DNA from: an uncultured Granulosicoccaceae bacterium
GTDB taxonomy: Bacteria > Pseudomonadota > Gammaproteobacteria > Granulosicoccales > Granulosicoccaceae
DNA length: 32,175 bases
Reading direction: 5' to 3'
Assembly (NCBI GenBank): GCA_938035125.1
Contig: CALHNS010000060.1
Location: 1 to 32,175 of the forward strand
Shown: one piece after another, positions 202 through 7,275 of the stretch
Layout of the letters: each line of letters begins with the position of its first letter
Position numbering within the stretch: position 1 is the stretch's first letter
Notes under the pieces: generated by a model
Told to the model about the DNA's origin: nothing
Database searches by the model: none
What the model saw: only the letters and a program-made list of their open reading frames with translations
Position numbers and translations under genes: made by a program

Positions 202-1170
202 ATGTCTGCATTCATGGAAGATTGCAAAATGGCTATGCGTGCTCGGCACCTAGCTTTTAAAACGGAAAAAAGTTACTTACATTGGATTCGACGGTACATT
301 CTTTTTCATAATAAAAAGCACCCAGTCGAAATGGCAGAAACTGAGGTCATAGATTTTCTTAATTTTTTGGCCTTGAAAAAGCGATGCAGCCCAAGCACGC
401 AATCACAGGCACTATGTGCTCTCGTTTTCATGCACCGGTATATTTTACTAAAACCCTTGGGGGATTTAAACGGTATCAAGCATGCGAAAAGACAACAACG
501 TTTGCCTGTTGTGTTAGCCCCAAATGAAGTCCATGAAATTTTGCGACATCTAAACGGCGTTGATCGGCTCATCACTGAATTAATGTACGGCTCTGGCTTA
601 CGAGTTAGCGAAGCGATTTCTCTTAGAATTAAAGACGTTGATTTACACAATCACTGCTTAACCATTCGAATGTCAAAAGGCGCTAAAGACAGAACCGTCA
701 CTCTCGCTGCCTCTATCGAATCTTCACTGGTTAATCAAATTCAACGCGCAAGATACATTCATACACAAGATTTACTTGAAGGCAATGGGTTCACACCGGC
801 ACCTTATGCGCTAAGGAGGAAACTGGGGGTAGCGCTTAAGTCTCCTGAATGGCAATTCATTTTTCCTTCTGCAAGCCTATGCGCGATTCCCGATACGGGT
901 GATATCGTTAGGTTTCATAGGCACGCTGACAATGTAAGAAAATCCATAAAGAGAGCTGCACAACGCGCCAAGATACCAAAGCGTGTAACCACTCATGTAT
1001 TTAGGCACAGTTTTGCAACTCATTTACTTCAAAGTGGTGCCGATATCAGAACTGTGCAAGATCAATTAGGCCACAACGACGTAAAAACCACCGAAATTTA
1101 TACCCACGTTATTAAACGCGGTGCGATGGCGGTGCAGTCACCTTTAGACTTACTCACCAAATTAAATTAA
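202..1170 (+). CDS. intI: Integron integrase IntI (tyrosine recombinase)
   Basis: A site-specific tyrosine recombinase that exchanges gene cassettes at attI/attC sites. The 322-residue product has an N-terminal SAM-like core-binding domain (about 5-85) and a C-terminal catalytic domain. The catalytic set is readable: Arg134 in GLRVSE, Lys159 in the SKGAKDR hairpin, His265 and Arg268 in HVFRH, His291 in LGHND, and nucleophile Tyr300 in EIYTH. The insertion that separates IntI from XerC/D is present around LKSPEWQFIFPS, followed by the typical integron ending RGAMAVQSPLD. The ATG at 202 has AGGAG seven bases upstream. No recognisable cassette or attC site is inside the window, so it is either the end of an array lying to the left or an orphan integrase. 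The downstream gene is on the opposite strand. Confidence 0.9.
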   Translation: MSAFMEDCKMAMRARHLAFKTEKSYLHWIRRYILFHNKKHPVEMAETEVIDFLNFLALKKRCSPSTQSQALCALVFMHRYILLKPLGDLNGIKHAKRQQRLPVVLAPNEVHEILRHLNGVDRLITELMYGSGLRVSEAISLRIKDVDLHNHCLTIRMSKGAKDRTVTLAASIESSLVNQIQRARYIHTQDLLEGNGFTPAPYALRRKLGVALKSPEWQFIFPSASLCAIPDTGDIVRFHRHADNVRKSIKRAAQRAKIPKRVTTHVFRHSFATHLLQSGADIRTVQDQLGHNDVKTTEIYTHVIKRGAMAVQSPLDLLTKLN

Positions 1171-1238: not shown

Positions 1239-1997
1239 TCATGTAATCTGCTTAATTGAACTCGGTAGCCCAGCTCTTTCAATTACGCTTGCAAGAGGCT
1301 CTACACAGCACCGTAATGTATGAGCTGTAGAATGCAGTATTAAATTTTCAGTTTTTAAAATTCCCACATGCCCAGGCCAGAACACTAAATTGCCGCTCTG
1401 TCGGTTTTCATAGCTTACATTTAATGGCAACGCGTTTTCCTGATCACCACTGTCGCGAGGAATAGATATTCCTTTCGCCTTCGCAAGCATCTGAACTAAA
1501 CCTGAACAGTCACACCCGTCACTACTTCGCCCGCCCCAAAGATAAGGGGCATCTAAATAATTATTCTGCGCTAATTCGATTAGGCTCAAACTTGATTTTG
1601 CATTCGCACTTTGACAATGCCCAGCCCAAATAAAGCCAATGTTTTCAACGCACATAAAGTTTGAATCGATATTGCACATGCTAAGTGAAACTTGGCTGCC
1701 AAATAACAATCGATTCACAACAGGAGATTTTATATCAGCAGATTCGAAAATAAAGGTAGCCCGATTACTGACCCAATGTGTTGCATTGATAAGGGTTGAC
1801 TCATAGGATGTGTTTTCTACAAAACCTGTGTATCCATCCTCAATCGTGCGGATTTTTGCCCATGACCCCAATAGCTGTAAAATCTCAATTCGTTCGCCAA
1901 ACAGCAGCTCGCTGGATGCTTTAGCATTGTGATCGGGAGACTCTTTCACTGTGCACAAAGGGATGCATATTCGAATAGCGTTTAAATCGGTTACCAT
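1239..1997 (-). CDS. NlpC/P60 peptidase with SH3b-like domains, probably cytosolic
   Basis: A 252-residue cysteine peptidase of the NlpC/P60 family, whose members cut the D-gamma-Glu to diamino-acid bond in peptidoglycan stem peptides. The N-terminal 130 residues look like two bacterial SH3-type domains. The catalytic domain starts near residue 140 (YLDAPYLWGGRSSDG). Its triad reads as Cys164 in CDCSGLV, His210 in PGHVGIL and His222 in LHST. The arrangement resembles Bacillus YkfC, which trims recycled muropeptides. No signal peptide or lipobox is visible, so a cytosolic recycling role is more likely than wall cleavage. It diverges from the amidase gene across 54 bp and belongs by context to the muropeptide island running to 7275. 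The family assignment is firm; the substrate is inferred. Confidence 0.82.
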   Translation of the reverse strand: MVTDLNAIRICIPLCTVKESPDHNAKASSELLFGERIEILQLLGSWAKIRTIEDGYTGFVENTSYESTLINATHWVSNRATFIFESADIKSPVVNRLLFGSQVSLSMCNIDSNFMCVENIGFIWAGHCQSANAKSSLSLIELAQNNYLDAPYLWGGRSSDGCDCSGLVQMLAKAKGISIPRDSGDQENALPLNVSYENRQSGNLVFWPGHVGILKTENLILHSTAHTLRCCVEPLASVIERAGLPSSIKQIT

Positions 1998-2051: not shown

Positions 2052-2474
2052 ATGCTTAACGCCAACAATATTCAGTATTTAGTGGTGCACTGTTCCGACA
2101 CTCCCGACGATGAACCGTTAACCGCACGTGATATCCACGCCATGCACCTTGGTTTCGGTTGGCACGGCGTGGGCTATCACCGAGTGATTAATCGAGACGG
2201 CCGCGTTGAACAAGGCCGCCCCGATTACTGGATTGGTGCTCACGTTTACGGTCATAACGAAATCTCTTTAGGCGTTTGCCTCATTGGCCGAAATGAGTTC
2301 ACCGATGCACAATTTCAATCATTAGCATCGGTACTTTCCGAATGGAAAAAAACACACCCTAACGCACAAGTTGTGGGGCATTGTGATTTTGACTACACAG
2401 AAAAAACCTGCCCTAACTTCGATGCCAAGAAATGGTGGTTATCTCAAACAGAATCACAAACACCACCCAGCTAA
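2052..2474 (+). CDS. N-acetylmuramoyl-L-alanine amidase, T7-lysozyme-like
   Basis: A zinc amidase of the PGRP/amidase_2 fold that splits the lactyl-amide bond between MurNAc and L-Ala. At 140 residues it is nearly all catalytic domain and resembles phage T7 lysozyme more than AmpD. Predicted zinc ligands are His13 (VVHCSD), His110 (GHCDF) and Cys120 (KTCPNF), with the catalytic-type Tyr42 in VGYHRV and Lys118. The conserved GRPDYWIGAHVYGHN stretch is also present. There is no signal peptide, so it could act on muropeptides imported by AmpG, as AmpD does; a domesticated phage lysozyme is the alternative origin. Its TAA overlaps the TAG of ampG by three bases in a convergent arrangement. The Shine-Dalgarno is poor. 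Confidence 0.85.
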   Translation: MLNANNIQYLVVHCSDTPDDEPLTARDIHAMHLGFGWHGVGYHRVINRDGRVEQGRPDYWIGAHVYGHNEISLGVCLIGRNEFTDAQFQSLASVLSEWKKTHPNAQVVGHCDFDYTEKTCPNFDAKKWWLSQTESQTPPS

Positions 2475-3886
2475 GAATCGGCTTTTCCTATAACCACTGT
2501 TTCGTTTGATAGATCCATTTTGTTACGAATGAACCACAGAACGATCAATGACGGAATAACCATCAAAGTGGTGATAATAAAAAACAAGCCCCAATCTCCA
2601 TCTAAAGTATCCACCATTTCACCGGAAAATGCCGCCATGGTGGTTCTTCCAAAGGTAGCAATAGAGGCCAGTAAGGCATATTGCGTTGCGGTGTACGTTC
2701 TATCCACTAGTAACGAAATGAAGGTAACAAAAGCCACCGTTGCGAAGGCGGCTGCTATGTCATCCACCACGACTGCCAACGCAAACAAACCTTTTGATGG
2801 CCCTACCCAAGCAAGCAACGAAAACATTAAATTGGTAACAGCCATTGCAATACCGGCAATAAACAAGGCCTTAATCACACCGGCTCGAAAAGCAAACCAG
2901 CCCCCAAGCAAAGTAAACACTACGGTGGTAATCCAGCCTAACGATTTGGAGTAAATGGCGATGTCTGATTTGGAAAACCCCAGCTCTTTGTAAAACACCA
3001 ATGACATCTTGCCCATAAAGGCTTCGCCAATTTTAAACAAAAACACAAACGCTAAAATAGCGGCGCCTATTTGCCATCCGTTCTTTTTGAAAAAACTGGT
3101 GAGCGGGCCAATGTAGGTACTTCCTACCCATGCCAAAATTTGTGGAATGCTCCACTTCACCGATTCTTGTGATTGCTGTGCTGAAGAACCCAAAGCACTA
3201 GCCACCTTTTGCTGAGCAGCAAACTGCGCTTGTCGTCGATCAATATCAGATACTTCAGGCACCAACAATAAAAACCAATTCATTGCAACGATTAAGATCA
3301 TTATCACGATGAATGTCATTTGCCAGTAGTTGGCATAACCCAAGGTTTCAAATTTATCCGCTACGAATAGCATGACAGCGCCGCCCAACTTATAGCCTGT
3401 CCACCAACCCACTACAGCGATAGCCGCTCCAGCAGCAACCGATGCTTTATCTTCAACCGGTATTTGCTCAATGCGTAGCGCATCGATGGTGATGTCTTGG
3501 GTGGCGGAACACACCGCAATAATCAACCCAACAGCCACCACAAGACCTAAGCTGGCAGTGGGATCTAATTGAGTCCAAACAATAAGGCTCAGAAGAATGA
3601 TGGCTTGAGCTAGAAAAATCCAAGATTTTCGATGCCCTAATTCTTCAGTTAAATAGGGAATTCGAATTCTATCAACCAGCGGTGCCCACCAGAAATTGAT
3701 GGCGTACACGCCAAATATCAAACTGGCGTATCCGATGGTGCTTCGACTTAAACCGTCTTCTTTTAACCACAGAGTAAGAGCGGTGCCGATAATAATCCAT
3801 GGAAAACCACTGATTGCACCCAGCAATAATATTCTTAACATGCGCCGATCGGCGTATACCGCTAAGGACGGATTACTTTGGTTCAT
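2471..3886 (-). CDS. ampG: AmpG-type muropeptide permease (MFS)
   Basis: An inner-membrane transporter of the major facilitator superfamily, AmpG branch, which imports GlcNAc-anhydroMurNAc-peptides released by lytic transglycosylases. The 471-residue protein is almost wholly hydrophobic segments, about a dozen. It carries AmpG landmarks: the start LGAISGFPW, the loop WWAPLVDRIRIPYL, and the helix CSATQDITIDALRIE corresponding to the conserved QDI..DA.R motif. A hydrophilic cytosolic loop near residues 215-245 separates the two halves. The ATG at 3886 has AGGA nine bases upstream. It is divergent from the GH84 gene (75 bp between) and convergent with the amidase, so it sits at the centre of the recycling island. 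Confidence 0.88.
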   Translation of the reverse strand: MNQSNPSLAVYADRRMLRILLLGAISGFPWIIIGTALTLWLKEDGLSRSTIGYASLIFGVYAINFWWAPLVDRIRIPYLTEELGHRKSWIFLAQAIILLSLIVWTQLDPTASLGLVVAVGLIIAVCSATQDITIDALRIEQIPVEDKASVAAGAAIAVVGWWTGYKLGGAVMLFVADKFETLGYANYWQMTFIVIMILIVAMNWFLLLVPEVSDIDRRQAQFAAQQKVASALGSSAQQSQESVKWSIPQILAWVGSTYIGPLTSFFKKNGWQIGAAILAFVFLFKIGEAFMGKMSLVFYKELGFSKSDIAIYSKSLGWITTVVFTLLGGWFAFRAGVIKALFIAGIAMAVTNLMFSLLAWVGPSKGLFALAVVVDDIAAAFATVAFVTFISLLVDRTYTATQYALLASIATFGRTTMAAFSGEMVDTLDGDWGLFFIITTLMVIPSLIVLWFIRNKMDLSNETVVIGKADS

Positions 3887-3961: not shown

Positions 3962-5164
3962 ATGGCAGAACAACACTCGAACCCACCGATTCGAGGCTAC
4001 CTTGAAGGATATTACGGGAAACTGCTCTCCTGGAACGAACGCAATGACATGCTCAAATTTTTATCATCTAAAAATTTGAACACCTATTGCTACGCACCCA
4101 AAGAAGACCCGCAACACCGATTGCACTGGCGTACGCCGTATTCGTCTCACTGGCAACAACAGTTCTCAACATTTTGCGAAAACGCAAATCAACACCAAAT
4201 TTGCATTGTCGCAGGCATTGCACCGGGCTTAGATTTCAGCTTTAAAACAAAAACGCAAGACAATGATTTTGATCAATTACTAACCAAAGCAAAAGCGCTA
4301 TTATTCCAAGGTGCCAACGAAATTCTCATACTTTGGGACGACATTGAAGAAGACGGCTATGTGAGCAGCAATGGCTTAAGTGAAGGTGCGGCTCATGCGC
4401 ACATCGTTAACCAGCTATCACAGGCTATCGGGCAAGCGTTATGGACTGTACCACGGGTGTACGCAGGCGATATAGACAATAAAAATCACTACCTAGAAAA
4501 CTTTTTCTCAACACTGCAACCCCAACACACCGTACTACTGTGTGGCAACGCCATAGTGGCAAAGTCTGTAAAAAAAGAACATTTGCAGCAATTAAGTAAC
4601 ACCAACACCAACACCAACACCAACACCAACACCAACAAAACCTTAAAACACCGCACAGTGGTGTGGGACAATTTCTACGCCAACGACTACTGCCCACGGC
4701 GGCTCTTTGTAGGGCCTTGGACCGGCAGAGAACATATTGATCACTACCTATTGAACCCAACCGGTTTACCTTACACTGACCAGTTAATACTAGAATTGGC
4801 TGTATCAACTCAAACCAATACCACCCCGTACACGCTATGGAAACAAACGCTAAAAAAACACGGAGTGCCAGAACAGTTTCTTACCATTGCGCCCTACTTT
4901 TCTCACCCCTTTTTCGGTGACCAAACGTTAAGCGGTGACGATAAAGATACCGAGTGTGTTTGGCCACATAAACCCGCTACCCTTGAAGAAACCACAGCCG
5001 CAATTGAACACTGTTTATGGAAATGGAAAACTCCTTTGGCTAGGGAATGGTATCCGTTTATTTTTGGCCTAAAGCACGACCTTGCCCTACTAGACAACAC
5101 ACTAACGCGAGAACGAATTGTTAAAACTCAACCACCTTTATTGGCAAAAAGGCTATTACGTTGA
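3962..5164 (+). CDS. GH84 beta-N-acetylglucosaminidase, O-GlcNAcase type
   Basis: A glycoside hydrolase family 84 enzyme that removes terminal beta-linked GlcNAc by substrate-assisted catalysis. The 400-residue protein begins directly with the barrel (RGYLEGYYGKLLSW), then NTYCYAPKEDP. The catalytic acid pair is Asp126-Asp127 in LWDDIEED. Further on, VVWDNFYANDY and FVGPWTGR match the sugar-binding segment of human O-GlcNAcase and of the soluble homologue from Oceanicola granulosus. There is no signal peptide, so it should be cytosolic. Its stop codon overlaps the anmK start in TTGA, and murQ follows, so the likely substrate is recycled GlcNAc-anhydroMurNAc, the role NagZ (GH3) has elsewhere. 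Removal of protein O-GlcNAc remains an alternative. An in-frame Asn-Thr repeat lies near residues 213-225. Confidence 0.82.
   Translation: MAEQHSNPPIRGYLEGYYGKLLSWNERNDMLKFLSSKNLNTYCYAPKEDPQHRLHWRTPYSSHWQQQFSTFCENANQHQICIVAGIAPGLDFSFKTKTQDNDFDQLLTKAKALLFQGANEILILWDDIEEDGYVSSNGLSEGAAHAHIVNQLSQAIGQALWTVPRVYAGDIDNKNHYLENFFSTLQPQHTVLLCGNAIVAKSVKKEHLQQLSNTNTNTNTNTNTNKTLKHRTVVWDNFYANDYCPRRLFVGPWTGREHIDHYLLNPTGLPYTDQLILELAVSTQTNTTPYTLWKQTLKKHGVPEQFLTIAPYFSHPFFGDQTLSGDDKDTECVWPHKPATLEETTAAIEHCLWKWKTPLAREWYPFIFGLKHDLALLDNTLTRERIVKTQPPLLAKRLLR
4598..4637 (+). repeat. AACACC hexanucleotide microsatellite inside the GH84 gene
   Basis: Six perfect copies of AACACC (4598-4633) followed by a partial copy encode alternating Asn-Thr. 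Because the unit is six bases, slippage adds or removes Asn-Thr pairs without shifting the frame. It lies between two conserved GH84 segments, after the KSVKKEHLQQL helix and before VVWDNF, so it probably lengthens a surface loop. Confidence 0.95.
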
Positions 5165-6330
5165 GTGAGCTTTATATAGGGTTAATGTCTGGCACAAGCT
5201 TAGATGCGGTTGATGCCGTAGTGGCATCCATAAACCACAACAACATCGATCTTGTAGCGAAGCACGAACAGCCATTTCCTGAAAATCTACGCAAGCACAT
5301 TCTGAGCATGTGCAATAACCAAGGCACCACACTATCGGCTATAGGCTCTTTAGATCACGAACTAGGTAAATTGTACGCACACACCGTTAATAAATTGCTC
5401 AAACAATCCGAATTAACGCCAGCACAGATAACGGCCATTGGGAATCATGGGCAAACTGTTTTTCATCAACCTACCGGTGAATCCCCATTCACTATACAGC
5501 TGGGCGATTCTCATATCATTGCAGCATTAACAGGTATAAACACAGTTGCTGATTTTCGGCGTTTAGACATGGCGTTAGGTGGGCAAGGTGCACCGCTAAC
5601 ACCTGCGTTTCACCAGTTTGTGTTCGCTAATAACCAATCTCAAAATCTACCAGACTCTACAATCGCCGTGGTTAACATCGGCGGCATTTCAAACGTAACA
5701 CTGATGCACGCTAACGATCCAGTTACCGGTTTTGACACAGGACCAGGAAATCTACTCATGGATGCCTGGTGTGAAAAACATACTGGCAAACGATTCGATA
5801 AAGATGCCCAATGGGCACGTACGGGCAAACTGAACAATGCGCTATTGAATCAGTTAATGGCTGACCCTTTTATTAAACAGCAAGCTCCCAAAAGCACGGG
5901 CCGGGAACACTATCATGTGCATTGGTTAGAAACACAAATTCAAAACCTAACTTCTTCTAATACAATATCCCCACACGATGTGCAAAGAACCTTATGTGAA
6001 TTTACTGCCTGCGCTATTACACACCATCTTGAACCTGTTCATAAGCGCACAATCCAAGAACTTCTTATTTGCGGAGGTGGGGCGAAAAACCCATTGTTAG
6101 TTGAACGACTCAGCGCACTGTTACCCAATTGGCAAGTAAAACCCACAACGGATAGAGGCATTCCCGTTGATTGTATGGAGGCCATGGCATTTGCATGGTT
6201 GGCTCGCCAAAGAATTCATAACTTACCCAGTAATTTACCTACGGTTACCGGTGCTAGAAAATCGGCCTCTTTGGGTGTGCTGGTGTCGGTAGATTCTATA
6301 AACGCACAAAAAACGGCACGTAACAATTAA
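5161..6330 (+). CDS. anmK: Anhydro-N-acetylmuramic acid kinase
   Basis: AnmK opens the 1,6-anhydro ring of anhydroMurNAc and phosphorylates it with ATP to give MurNAc-6-phosphate, a cytosolic step in peptidoglycan recycling. The product has 389 residues, slightly longer than usual. The family signature GLMSGTSLDAVDAV is at the start, GNHGQTVFHQP and DFRRLDMALGGQGAPLTP are in the middle, and the ASKHA-fold segments NIGGISNV, FDTGPGN and LICGGGAKNP follow. The only suitable start is TTG at 5161, whose last bases form part of the GH84 stop (TTGA), implying translational coupling. murQ, which consumes its product, begins 30 bp after the stop. Confidence 0.93.
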   Translation: MSELYIGLMSGTSLDAVDAVVASINHNNIDLVAKHEQPFPENLRKHILSMCNNQGTTLSAIGSLDHELGKLYAHTVNKLLKQSELTPAQITAIGNHGQTVFHQPTGESPFTIQLGDSHIIAALTGINTVADFRRLDMALGGQGAPLTPAFHQFVFANNQSQNLPDSTIAVVNIGGISNVTLMHANDPVTGFDTGPGNLLMDAWCEKHTGKRFDKDAQWARTGKLNNALLNQLMADPFIKQQAPKSTGREHYHVHWLETQIQNLTSSNTISPHDVQRTLCEFTACAITHHLEPVHKRTIQELLICGGGAKNPLLVERLSALLPNWQVKPTTDRGIPVDCMEAMAFAWLARQRIHNLPSNLPTVTGARKSASLGVLVSVDSINAQKTARNN

Positions 6331-6360
6331 AAAATCGACCGATTTAAAATTCGAGACAAC

Positions 6361-7275
6361 ATGAACGACAGCCAACTGAACAATACGCTATCCACGCTGG
6401 TATCTGAACAACGAAATCCTGACACTATGGATTTGGATACGCTTAGCACAATGGAATTAGTTACCAAACTCAATCAACAAGATCAATTGGTGCCGTTAGC
6501 GGTTGAAAAAGAACTTCCACAAATTGCTAAGGCCGTTGATCTTATAAGTGATGCGTTCGGATCTGGCGGTAGGCTGCTGTATGTGGGTGCTGGCACCAGC
6601 GGGCGATTAGGGGTGCTGGATGCATCTGAATGTCCGCCCACTTTTGGTGTCGACGAATCCATGGTAATTGGCTTGATCGCTGGTGGTTCAGAAGCTATTT
6701 ACCGTTCACAAGAGGGGGCTGAAGATTCTATGGACTTAGGTGAAACGGATTTAATAAACGAGCAACTCAATGCAAGCGATGTTGTGGTGGGCATTGCCGC
6801 AAGTGGGCGCACGCCTTATGTTGTGGGTGCATTGCGCTATGCGAATTCCATCAATGCCCGCACAGTGGCCCTGTCTTGCAACCCAAATTCCACCATTGCA
6901 CAATTAGCCGATGTGGCCATCTCCCCCGTAGTAGGCCCAGAAGCTTTAACTGGCTCTACCCGATTAAAATCAGGCACAGCGCAAAAATTAATACTCAACA
7001 TGCTCAGTACCGCAAGCATGGTAAAGATCGGTAAAAGCTATGAAAACCTGATGGTGGATGTACAAACATCAAACGAGAAGTTACGCGTGCGCGCAGTGCG
7101 CATTCTCATGCAAGCCACCGGATGCACCGATGACGAAGCAGCTCATTTACTTGAAAAAAGCCAAAACCAACTTAAAACAGCGATTTTTATGCAGCTAACT
7201 GGCACCTCTGTTGTTGCTGCCAACGAACGCTTAGCATCGGTATCAGGCAATCTTAGAAAAGCATTGTCCTTCTGA
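6361..7275 (+). CDS. murQ: N-acetylmuramic acid 6-phosphate etherase
   Basis: MurQ cleaves the lactyl ether of MurNAc-6-phosphate, yielding GlcNAc-6-phosphate and D-lactate, the reaction after AnmK. The 304-residue protein is a SIS-domain sugar isomerase-type fold of normal length. The phosphosugar loop [11 protein letters not shown] is followed by SECPPTFG, placing the catalytic acid at Glu90; the second conserved acid is Glu121 in EGAEDS (Glu83 and Glu114 in E. coli). The C-terminal helical part has the usual [14 protein letters not shown] motif. It is the last gene of the GH84-anmK-murQ operon and is followed by a convergent gene after 39 bp. Confidence 0.95.

Follow-up and report, generated by a model that had tools for sequence, protein, structure and literature searches.

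A GH84 enzyme encoded among muropeptide recycling genes is a probable stand-in for NagZ

A 32,175-nucleotide stretch of DNA from an uncultured Granulosicoccaceae bacterium (assembly GCA_938035125.1, contig CALHNS010000060.1; hereafter the window) encodes a predicted beta-N-acetylglucosaminidase of glycoside hydrolase family 84 (GH84) amid genes for muropeptide recycling; the bacterium is related to marine Granulosicoccus. We judge it highly probable, from comparative genomics, that this enzyme does the job of NagZ in peptidoglycan recycling, the best supported of the readings weighed here; it would then be a non-orthologous replacement of a GH3 enzyme, working by a different catalytic mechanism. 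NagZ, as described in PMC3920638, is the cytosolic enzyme that removes the non-reducing N-acetylglucosamine (GlcNAc) in E. coli-type recycling, and it makes a covalent glycosyl-enzyme; GH84 enzymes, by contrast, employ the 2-acetamido group of their substrate, according to PMC4683255. GH84 is proposed to catalyse the same reaction as NagZ, in the same compartment and at the same stage, after AmpG import and before the AnmK and MurQ steps; the two families, GH84 and GH3, are unrelated. No paper seen in searches of the open-licence literature proposed a GH84 enzyme in peptidoglycan recycling.

AmpG, an AmpD-type amidase, AnmK and MurQ lie together with GH84 in one 6-kb cluster of the window:

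1239-1997, minus strand: SH3-NlpC/P60 peptidase (PF00877, 61.4 bits; PF18348, 35.4 bits)
2052-2474, plus strand: AmpD-type (Amidase_2) N-acetylmuramoyl-L-alanine amidase (PF01510, 64.2 bits)
2471-3886, minus strand: AmpG-type muropeptide permease (TIGR00901, 369.6 bits, cut-off 350)
3962-5164, plus strand: putative GH84 beta-N-acetylglucosaminidase of 400 residues, predicted to be cytosolic and proposed to replace NagZ (PF07555 catalytic domain, 170.6 bits, curated cut-off 25)
5161-6330, plus strand: AnmK, anhydro-N-acetylmuramic acid kinase, with a TTG start (PF03702, 511 bits; NF007139, 508.9 bits, cut-off 367)
6361-7275, plus strand: MurQ, N-acetylmuramic acid 6-phosphate etherase (TIGR00274, 420.7 bits, cut-off 302)

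An earlier note on this DNA, made from the sequence alone, had described a cytosolic GH84 with an Asp126-Asp127 pair that overlaps anmK through TTGA, is followed by murQ and lies opposite ampG; coordinates and profile scores agree with that description, in which 'cytosolic' is a prediction. The GH84 stop and AnmK start share positions 5161-5164 (ttga), 30 bases separate AnmK from MurQ, and AmpG is divergent from GH84, their start codons being 75 bases apart. Beyond AmpG are the Amidase_2 and SH3-NlpC/P60 genes, both of which the note had left unnamed. The nearest solved structures to the AnmK protein are AnmK; the amidase is AmpD-type by its Pfam domain alone, falling under the AmpD equivalog cut-off (28.3 vs 143 bits), and its top solved relative is T7 lysozyme, with a much weaker match to AmpD and no signal peptide evident by eye. 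The SH3-NlpC/P60 protein has solved relatives that include 3npf, 3pvq and 3h41, with dipeptidyl-peptidase VI represented among them and 3h41 itself being an NlpC/P60 protein; its architecture is of the dipeptidyl-peptidase VI type, and it likely acts on recycled stem peptide.

The five genes flanking GH84 thus appear to match import, removal and trimming of the peptide, and both steps that act on anhydro-N-acetylmuramic acid (anhydroMurNAc). AmpG would import GlcNAc-anhydroMurNAc-peptides, the Amidase_2 protein would strip the peptide and the NlpC/P60 enzyme would trim it; GH84 would release GlcNAc from GlcNAc-anhydroMurNAc, with or without peptide, by means of Asp126-Asp127 and the 2-acetamido group of the substrate, and the freed anhydroMurNAc would then be open to AnmK and MurQ. 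AnmK makes N-acetylmuramic acid 6-phosphate, from which MurQ makes GlcNAc-6-phosphate and D-lactate. The window therefore resembles the E. coli-type AmpG-AmpD-NagZ-AnmK-MurQ pathway in having AmpG, Amidase_2, AnmK and MurQ, and differs from it in having GH84 (in two relatives, GH20) in the NagZ place and an NlpC/P60 peptidase in the cluster.

We infer the substrate, cellular location and reaction of GH84 from its sequence and setting. Its fold, a TIM (triosephosphate isomerase) barrel followed by a C-terminal helical domain, spans residues 8-400, and its closest named relatives come from uncultured Granulosicoccaceae (54-58% identity). Asp126-Asp127 align with Asp174-Asp175 of human O-GlcNAcase (OGA), and Gly16, Lys47, Tyr167, Trp235, Asn237 and Asp242 are conserved along with the Asp pair; in human OGA we take the GlcNAc-binding residues to be Gly67, Lys98, Tyr219, Trp278, Asn280 and Asp285. 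Catalytic and sugar-binding residues are identical across all 108 bacterial rows of the alignment. The earlier note found the segment WDNFYANDY (residues 235-243) strikingly like that of eukaryotic O-GlcNAcase; its likeness to the human WDNIHANDY consists of sugar-binding residues common to aligned family members. The barrel begins early, EGYYG, its first motif, coming after just 14 residues (after 6 in many SAR86 proteins), and no hydrophobic stretch is seen by eye ahead of it; this would leave no room for a signal peptide, and we predict that the protein is cytosolic. Profile searches matched it to no GH3 family, the NagZ equivalog NF003740 included. Within the gene, a perfect AACACC repeat of 6.7 copies (4598-4637) codes for an Asn-Thr run whose length could vary with the frame kept.

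Among related genomes, GH84 (called by PF07555) and canonical NagZ (called over the NF003740 cut-off) were never found together. Of 57 relatives, 23 carry GH84, 22 carry NagZ, 12 carry neither and none carries both (Fisher one-sided, 1.6e-7); within the family alone (36 genomes) the counts are 23 with GH84, 4 with NagZ and 9 with neither (p 0.012). AnmK is present in 48 of the 57, and these divide into 22 with GH84, 21 with NagZ, none with both and 5 with neither. The same pattern recurs in the order of the SAR86 genome G094, where GH84 occurs in 49 of 61 genomes, NagZ in 11, both in none and neither in one, G514 (Fisher, 2.9e-11), the remaining GH3 matches there being weak at no more than 57 bits. 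AnmK is found in 55 of those 61 genomes (GH84 in 44, NagZ in 10, both in 0, neither in 1). A tree was built from 54 of the 55 AnmK proteins (all but that of G514), AnmK serving as a stand-in for the species tree; on it the GH84/NagZ label needs four changes, all forced by starred branches, and the two enzymes go opposite ways in 4 of 4 independent pairs.

The order of the SAR116 genome G062 gave a more one-sided result: 70 of its 101 genomes carry GH84, and a NagZ-like GH3 was found in not one of the 101 even with the threshold at E 0.001, while in the alphaproteobacterial class to which it belongs (289 genomes) a NagZ-like GH3 match occurs in 242 genomes and exceeds the cut-off in 191. Three genomes of the order with GH84 and no NagZ found (G319, G395 and G403) have contigs of 2.75, 2.70 and 2.59 Mb, so in these the absence is hardly due to assembly gaps. 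Mutual exclusion with NagZ, together with the absence of NagZ across this order, strengthens the case for a NagZ-like role, for which we regard the comparative support as strong.

Gene neighbourhoods point the same way in two of the three main groups. We counted AmpG, Amidase_2, NlpC, AnmK or MurQ within 8 kb of GH84, using the window proteins and their SAR116 versions as queries, and found at least one such gene at all 22 of the other loci from Granulosicoccaceae (AmpG 15, NlpC 16, Amidase_2 13, AnmK 6, MurQ 2), AnmK often being elsewhere in this family, and at 24 of 26 SAR116-type loci (AnmK 24, MurQ 23, AmpG 20, NlpC 17, Amidase_2 16), the two exceptions being on contigs of about 6 kb. A common SAR116 gene order is Amidase_2, NlpC, AmpG, MurQ, AnmK, PIG-L deacetylase, GH84; some loci instead have AmpG on the far side of GH84. 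The SAR116-type loci belong to a set of 72 that also holds 37 SAR86-type loci, 4 others and 5 from Granulosicoccaceae; those 5 likewise have recycling neighbours, and three of them look like the same contigs as among the 22. The SAR116-type and SAR86-type grouping was made by record titles and similarity, some titles giving only Alphaproteobacteria, Gammaproteobacteria or Proteobacteria. The earlier note had proposed a GH84 stand-in for NagZ, to be checked by searching the genome for nagZ and surveying the neighbourhood in relatives; that part of its interpretation came through both checks, a profile search having found no canonical NagZ in the window's assembly (3.54 Mb, 111 contigs, 92.53% complete).

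A single GH3 was found in that genome. With the NagZ profile NF003740 it reaches 146.1 bits, short of the cut-off of 207. Among solved structures the lipoprotein LpqI is closest to it, and the N-terminus of this GH3 has a hydrophobic stretch ending in LLSAC, presumably a lipobox; being lipoprotein-like and under the cut-off, the protein was ruled out as an ordinary NagZ. Seven other sub-cut-off GH3s of the family were read (L048-L051 and L053-L055), and by eye five of them (L049, L050, L051, L053 and L054) have a similar lipobox, with that of L055 not clear. Other relatives have 22 loci with canonical NagZ (L026-L047); no lipobox was seen in the 21 that were read, though their frames include stretches before the true starts. 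L048 is a divergent, cytosolic-looking NagZ-like GH3 (171 bits) of a same-genus genome, G001, in which GH84 was not found. These lipoproteins raise the alternative that cytosolic GlcNAc removal is missing or minor, with a lipoprotein GH3 acting outside the cytosol and GH84 doing something else. The lipobox-like N-terminus, the kinship to LpqI and the five lipoprotein-like cousins would suit it; however, a GH3 match of 126-157 bits occurs in only 7 of 23 GH84 carriers (G000, G010, G020, G025, G027, G032 and G035) and in none of the 101 SAR116-order genomes, so that such a GH3 accompanies GH84 in some genomes and is absent from most, and we consider this alternative very improbable.

A third enzyme family may fill the same position in two same-genus relatives, G016 and G005, in which searches turned up AnmK but no GH84 and no NagZ. 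Each encodes a GH20 hexosaminidase (326 and 327 bits, at L324:4867-6810 and L323:5072-7027, respectively) whose gene overlaps the Amidase_2 gene and is followed by NlpC and AnmK, and in which no signal peptide is evident by eye. Because GH20 sits in the Amidase_2-NlpC-AnmK operon of genomes without GH84 or NagZ, the GlcNAc-removal step appears to be replaceable by unrelated families. The remaining AnmK-bearing relatives with neither enzyme, G007, G022 and G043, are 68%, 82% and 75% complete, and in G007 and G022 no hexosaminidase was noticed next to AnmK. A broader picture, which we think reasonably likely, is that the cytosolic GlcNAc-removal step is a hot-swappable slot, filled by this GH84 branch in Granulosicoccaceae, SAR116 and most SAR86, by GH20 in some Granulosicoccaceae and by NagZ elsewhere; some of the proteins now annotated as bacterial O-GlcNAcases would then be muropeptide hexosaminidases in some of the most abundant surface-ocean bacteria.

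Several observations weigh against a NagZ-like role for GH84. None of the 37 SAR86-type loci has a recycling gene within 8 kb of GH84, making exclusion of NagZ the whole of the SAR86 case; the Fisher tests ignore kinship, and four switches alone cannot reach p 0.05. A NagZ may possibly have been missed in a genome that is 92.5% complete. Neither enzyme was found in 31 of the 101 SAR116-order genomes or in the 5 AnmK-bearing relatives mentioned above. Co-occurrence is also seen: the Alphaproteobacteria G110 and G377 have NagZ over the cut-off as well as a GH84 of another branch, and among 50 GH84-carrying genomes checked for NagZ (50 of the 72 submitted) three, from Myxococcota/Deltaproteobacteria, have NagZ over the cut-off and 22 more have a sub-cut-off GH3. 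In those three (L125, L126 and L133) the GH84 frames have at least 235 residues before the barrel, with an ATG 210-225 residues before it. Within the alphaproteobacterial class, GH84 occurs in 7 of the 289 genomes; G062, G215 and G319 belong to the SAR116 order, and G229 and G333, outside it, have weak GH3 matches only (7.7e-16 and 3.8e-11). The 4 GH84 loci outside Granulosicoccaceae and the SAR116 and SAR86 types have no recycling gene nearby.

One alternative is that GH84 acts in the cytosol as a general beta-N-acetylglucosaminidase on imported GlcNAc glycosides (chitobiose or other oligosaccharides, for example), muropeptides being no more than one substrate among several. GH84 enzymes accept many different groups beyond GlcNAc, a NagZ-keeping alphaproteobacterium has its GH84 beside a BadF-type kinase and a GntR-type regulator, and the SAR86-type genes lie away from recycling genes, all of which would agree with a scavenger. 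Exclusion of NagZ in sets of 57 and 61 genomes and its absence in 101 would not be expected of one, however, and in Granulosicoccaceae and SAR116 it is muropeptide genes that surround GH84; we therefore hold a general scavenger to be unlikely.

A tree of GH84 proteins (67 rows, those over 80% identical having been removed; the root is not known) sets the window enzyme apart from human OGA. Recycling-type GH84s, namely those of Granulosicoccaceae, SAR116 and SAR86 with one Fibrobacteria row, separate at 93/94 from the others: human OGA, OgOGA, NagJ, TtOGA, four alphaproteobacterial GH84s and two Myxococcota-type rows. Within that other side, human OGA and OgOGA pair (99/85), these two group with NagJ, TtOGA and the four alphaproteobacterial proteins (99/93), and the latter (G110, G377, G229 and G333) make up a branch of their own (100/100). 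The farthest in-frame ATG lies no more than 20 residues before the first barrel glycine in 88 of 101 recycling-type rows. When the 56 recycling-type rows without the Fibrobacteria row were tested as one clade, the approximately unbiased test (p-AU 0.235) neither rejected nor showed it. One SAR116 group nests within the Granulosicoccaceae GH84s (99/94), which suggests transfer between classes. The earlier note had raised a peptidoglycan-recycling origin or branch for the O-GlcNAcase family: a separate recycling-type branch is there in the tree, but a recycling origin of eukaryotic OGA finds no support, human OGA grouping with OgOGA, NagJ and TtOGA apart from it.

The same tree bears on whether GH84 could be a protein O-GlcNAcase whose place among recycling genes is incidental. 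With human OGA, OgOGA, TtOGA, CpOGA/NagJ and BtGH84 the window protein shares the GH84 fold, and with all of these save BtGH84, which is in neither tree nor alignment, the Asp pair and sugar-binding residues; it has the family, fold and catalytic residues of O-GlcNAcases, and 3 of the 120 homologues listed are named 'protein O-GlcNAcase/histone acetyltransferase'. Unlike human OGA, OgOGA, TtOGA and NagJ, it lies on a separate branch and among muropeptide recycling genes, and it is shorter than most NagJ and BtGH84 chains (579-737 residues). Given that split, the recycling neighbourhood and the exclusion of NagZ, we find a protein O-GlcNAcase the least likely of the alternatives, with hardly any weight.

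If GH84 does take the part of NagZ, this bacterial branch of the O-GlcNAcase family would gain a native function, the 'protein O-GlcNAcase/histone acetyltransferase' names would be misleading for some of its members, and finding a cytosolic GH84 would not show that a bacterium cycles O-GlcNAc on its proteins. Marine clades apparently without NagZ would recycle wall sugars after all, and the step should be blocked by O-GlcNAcase inhibitors such as Thiamet-G, which is bound to human OGA in solved structures, rather than by NagZ-selective ones.

Further features of these loci were noted. A SAR86 example had prfA, prmC and a ThiF-family gene preceding GH84; a single place shared by GH84 and NagZ in SAR86 was rejected, as six NagZ loci (L314-L319) gave no match to the prfA, prmC or moeB neighbours of a SAR86-type GH84. 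A GH84 fusion in G412 (a 692-residue open frame) was likewise set aside, the frame crossing an N gap in the assembly, and in G450 of the SAR116 order (contig 25, 5198-5896) GH84 matches fall in several pieces, two with stops, indicating a broken gene or poor assembly. Among SAR116-type loci, several have the PIG-L deacetylase between AnmK and GH84, a 3-hydroxyisobutyrate-dehydrogenase-type gene adjoins GH84 in 13 of 32 scanned (for example, L091:9158-10039), and at L334:11133-12407, in a genome of the SAR116 order, Amidase_2 and NlpC/P60 matches share one open frame, likely a fusion of peptide-processing enzymes. The locus L322:2104-8905 of G377 holds AnmK, an AmpG-like gene, a gene that by eye resembles GntR regulators, and MurQ; the BadF-type kinase and other-branch GH84 are divergent from these. 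By profile score, AnmK in the window's genus splits in two: three genomes score 480-514 bits, and most of the rest, apart from fragments, score 234-283 bits. Where loci were read, MurQ was found beside AnmK only in the 480-514-bit class.

Scans of the window for promoters (7 found vs a mean of 12.1) and terminators (9 found vs 7.7, standard deviation 2.6) were not above chance. The recycling cluster is adjoined by one further gene:

202-1170, plus strand: integron integrase (TIGR02249, 383.8 bits, cut-off 265)

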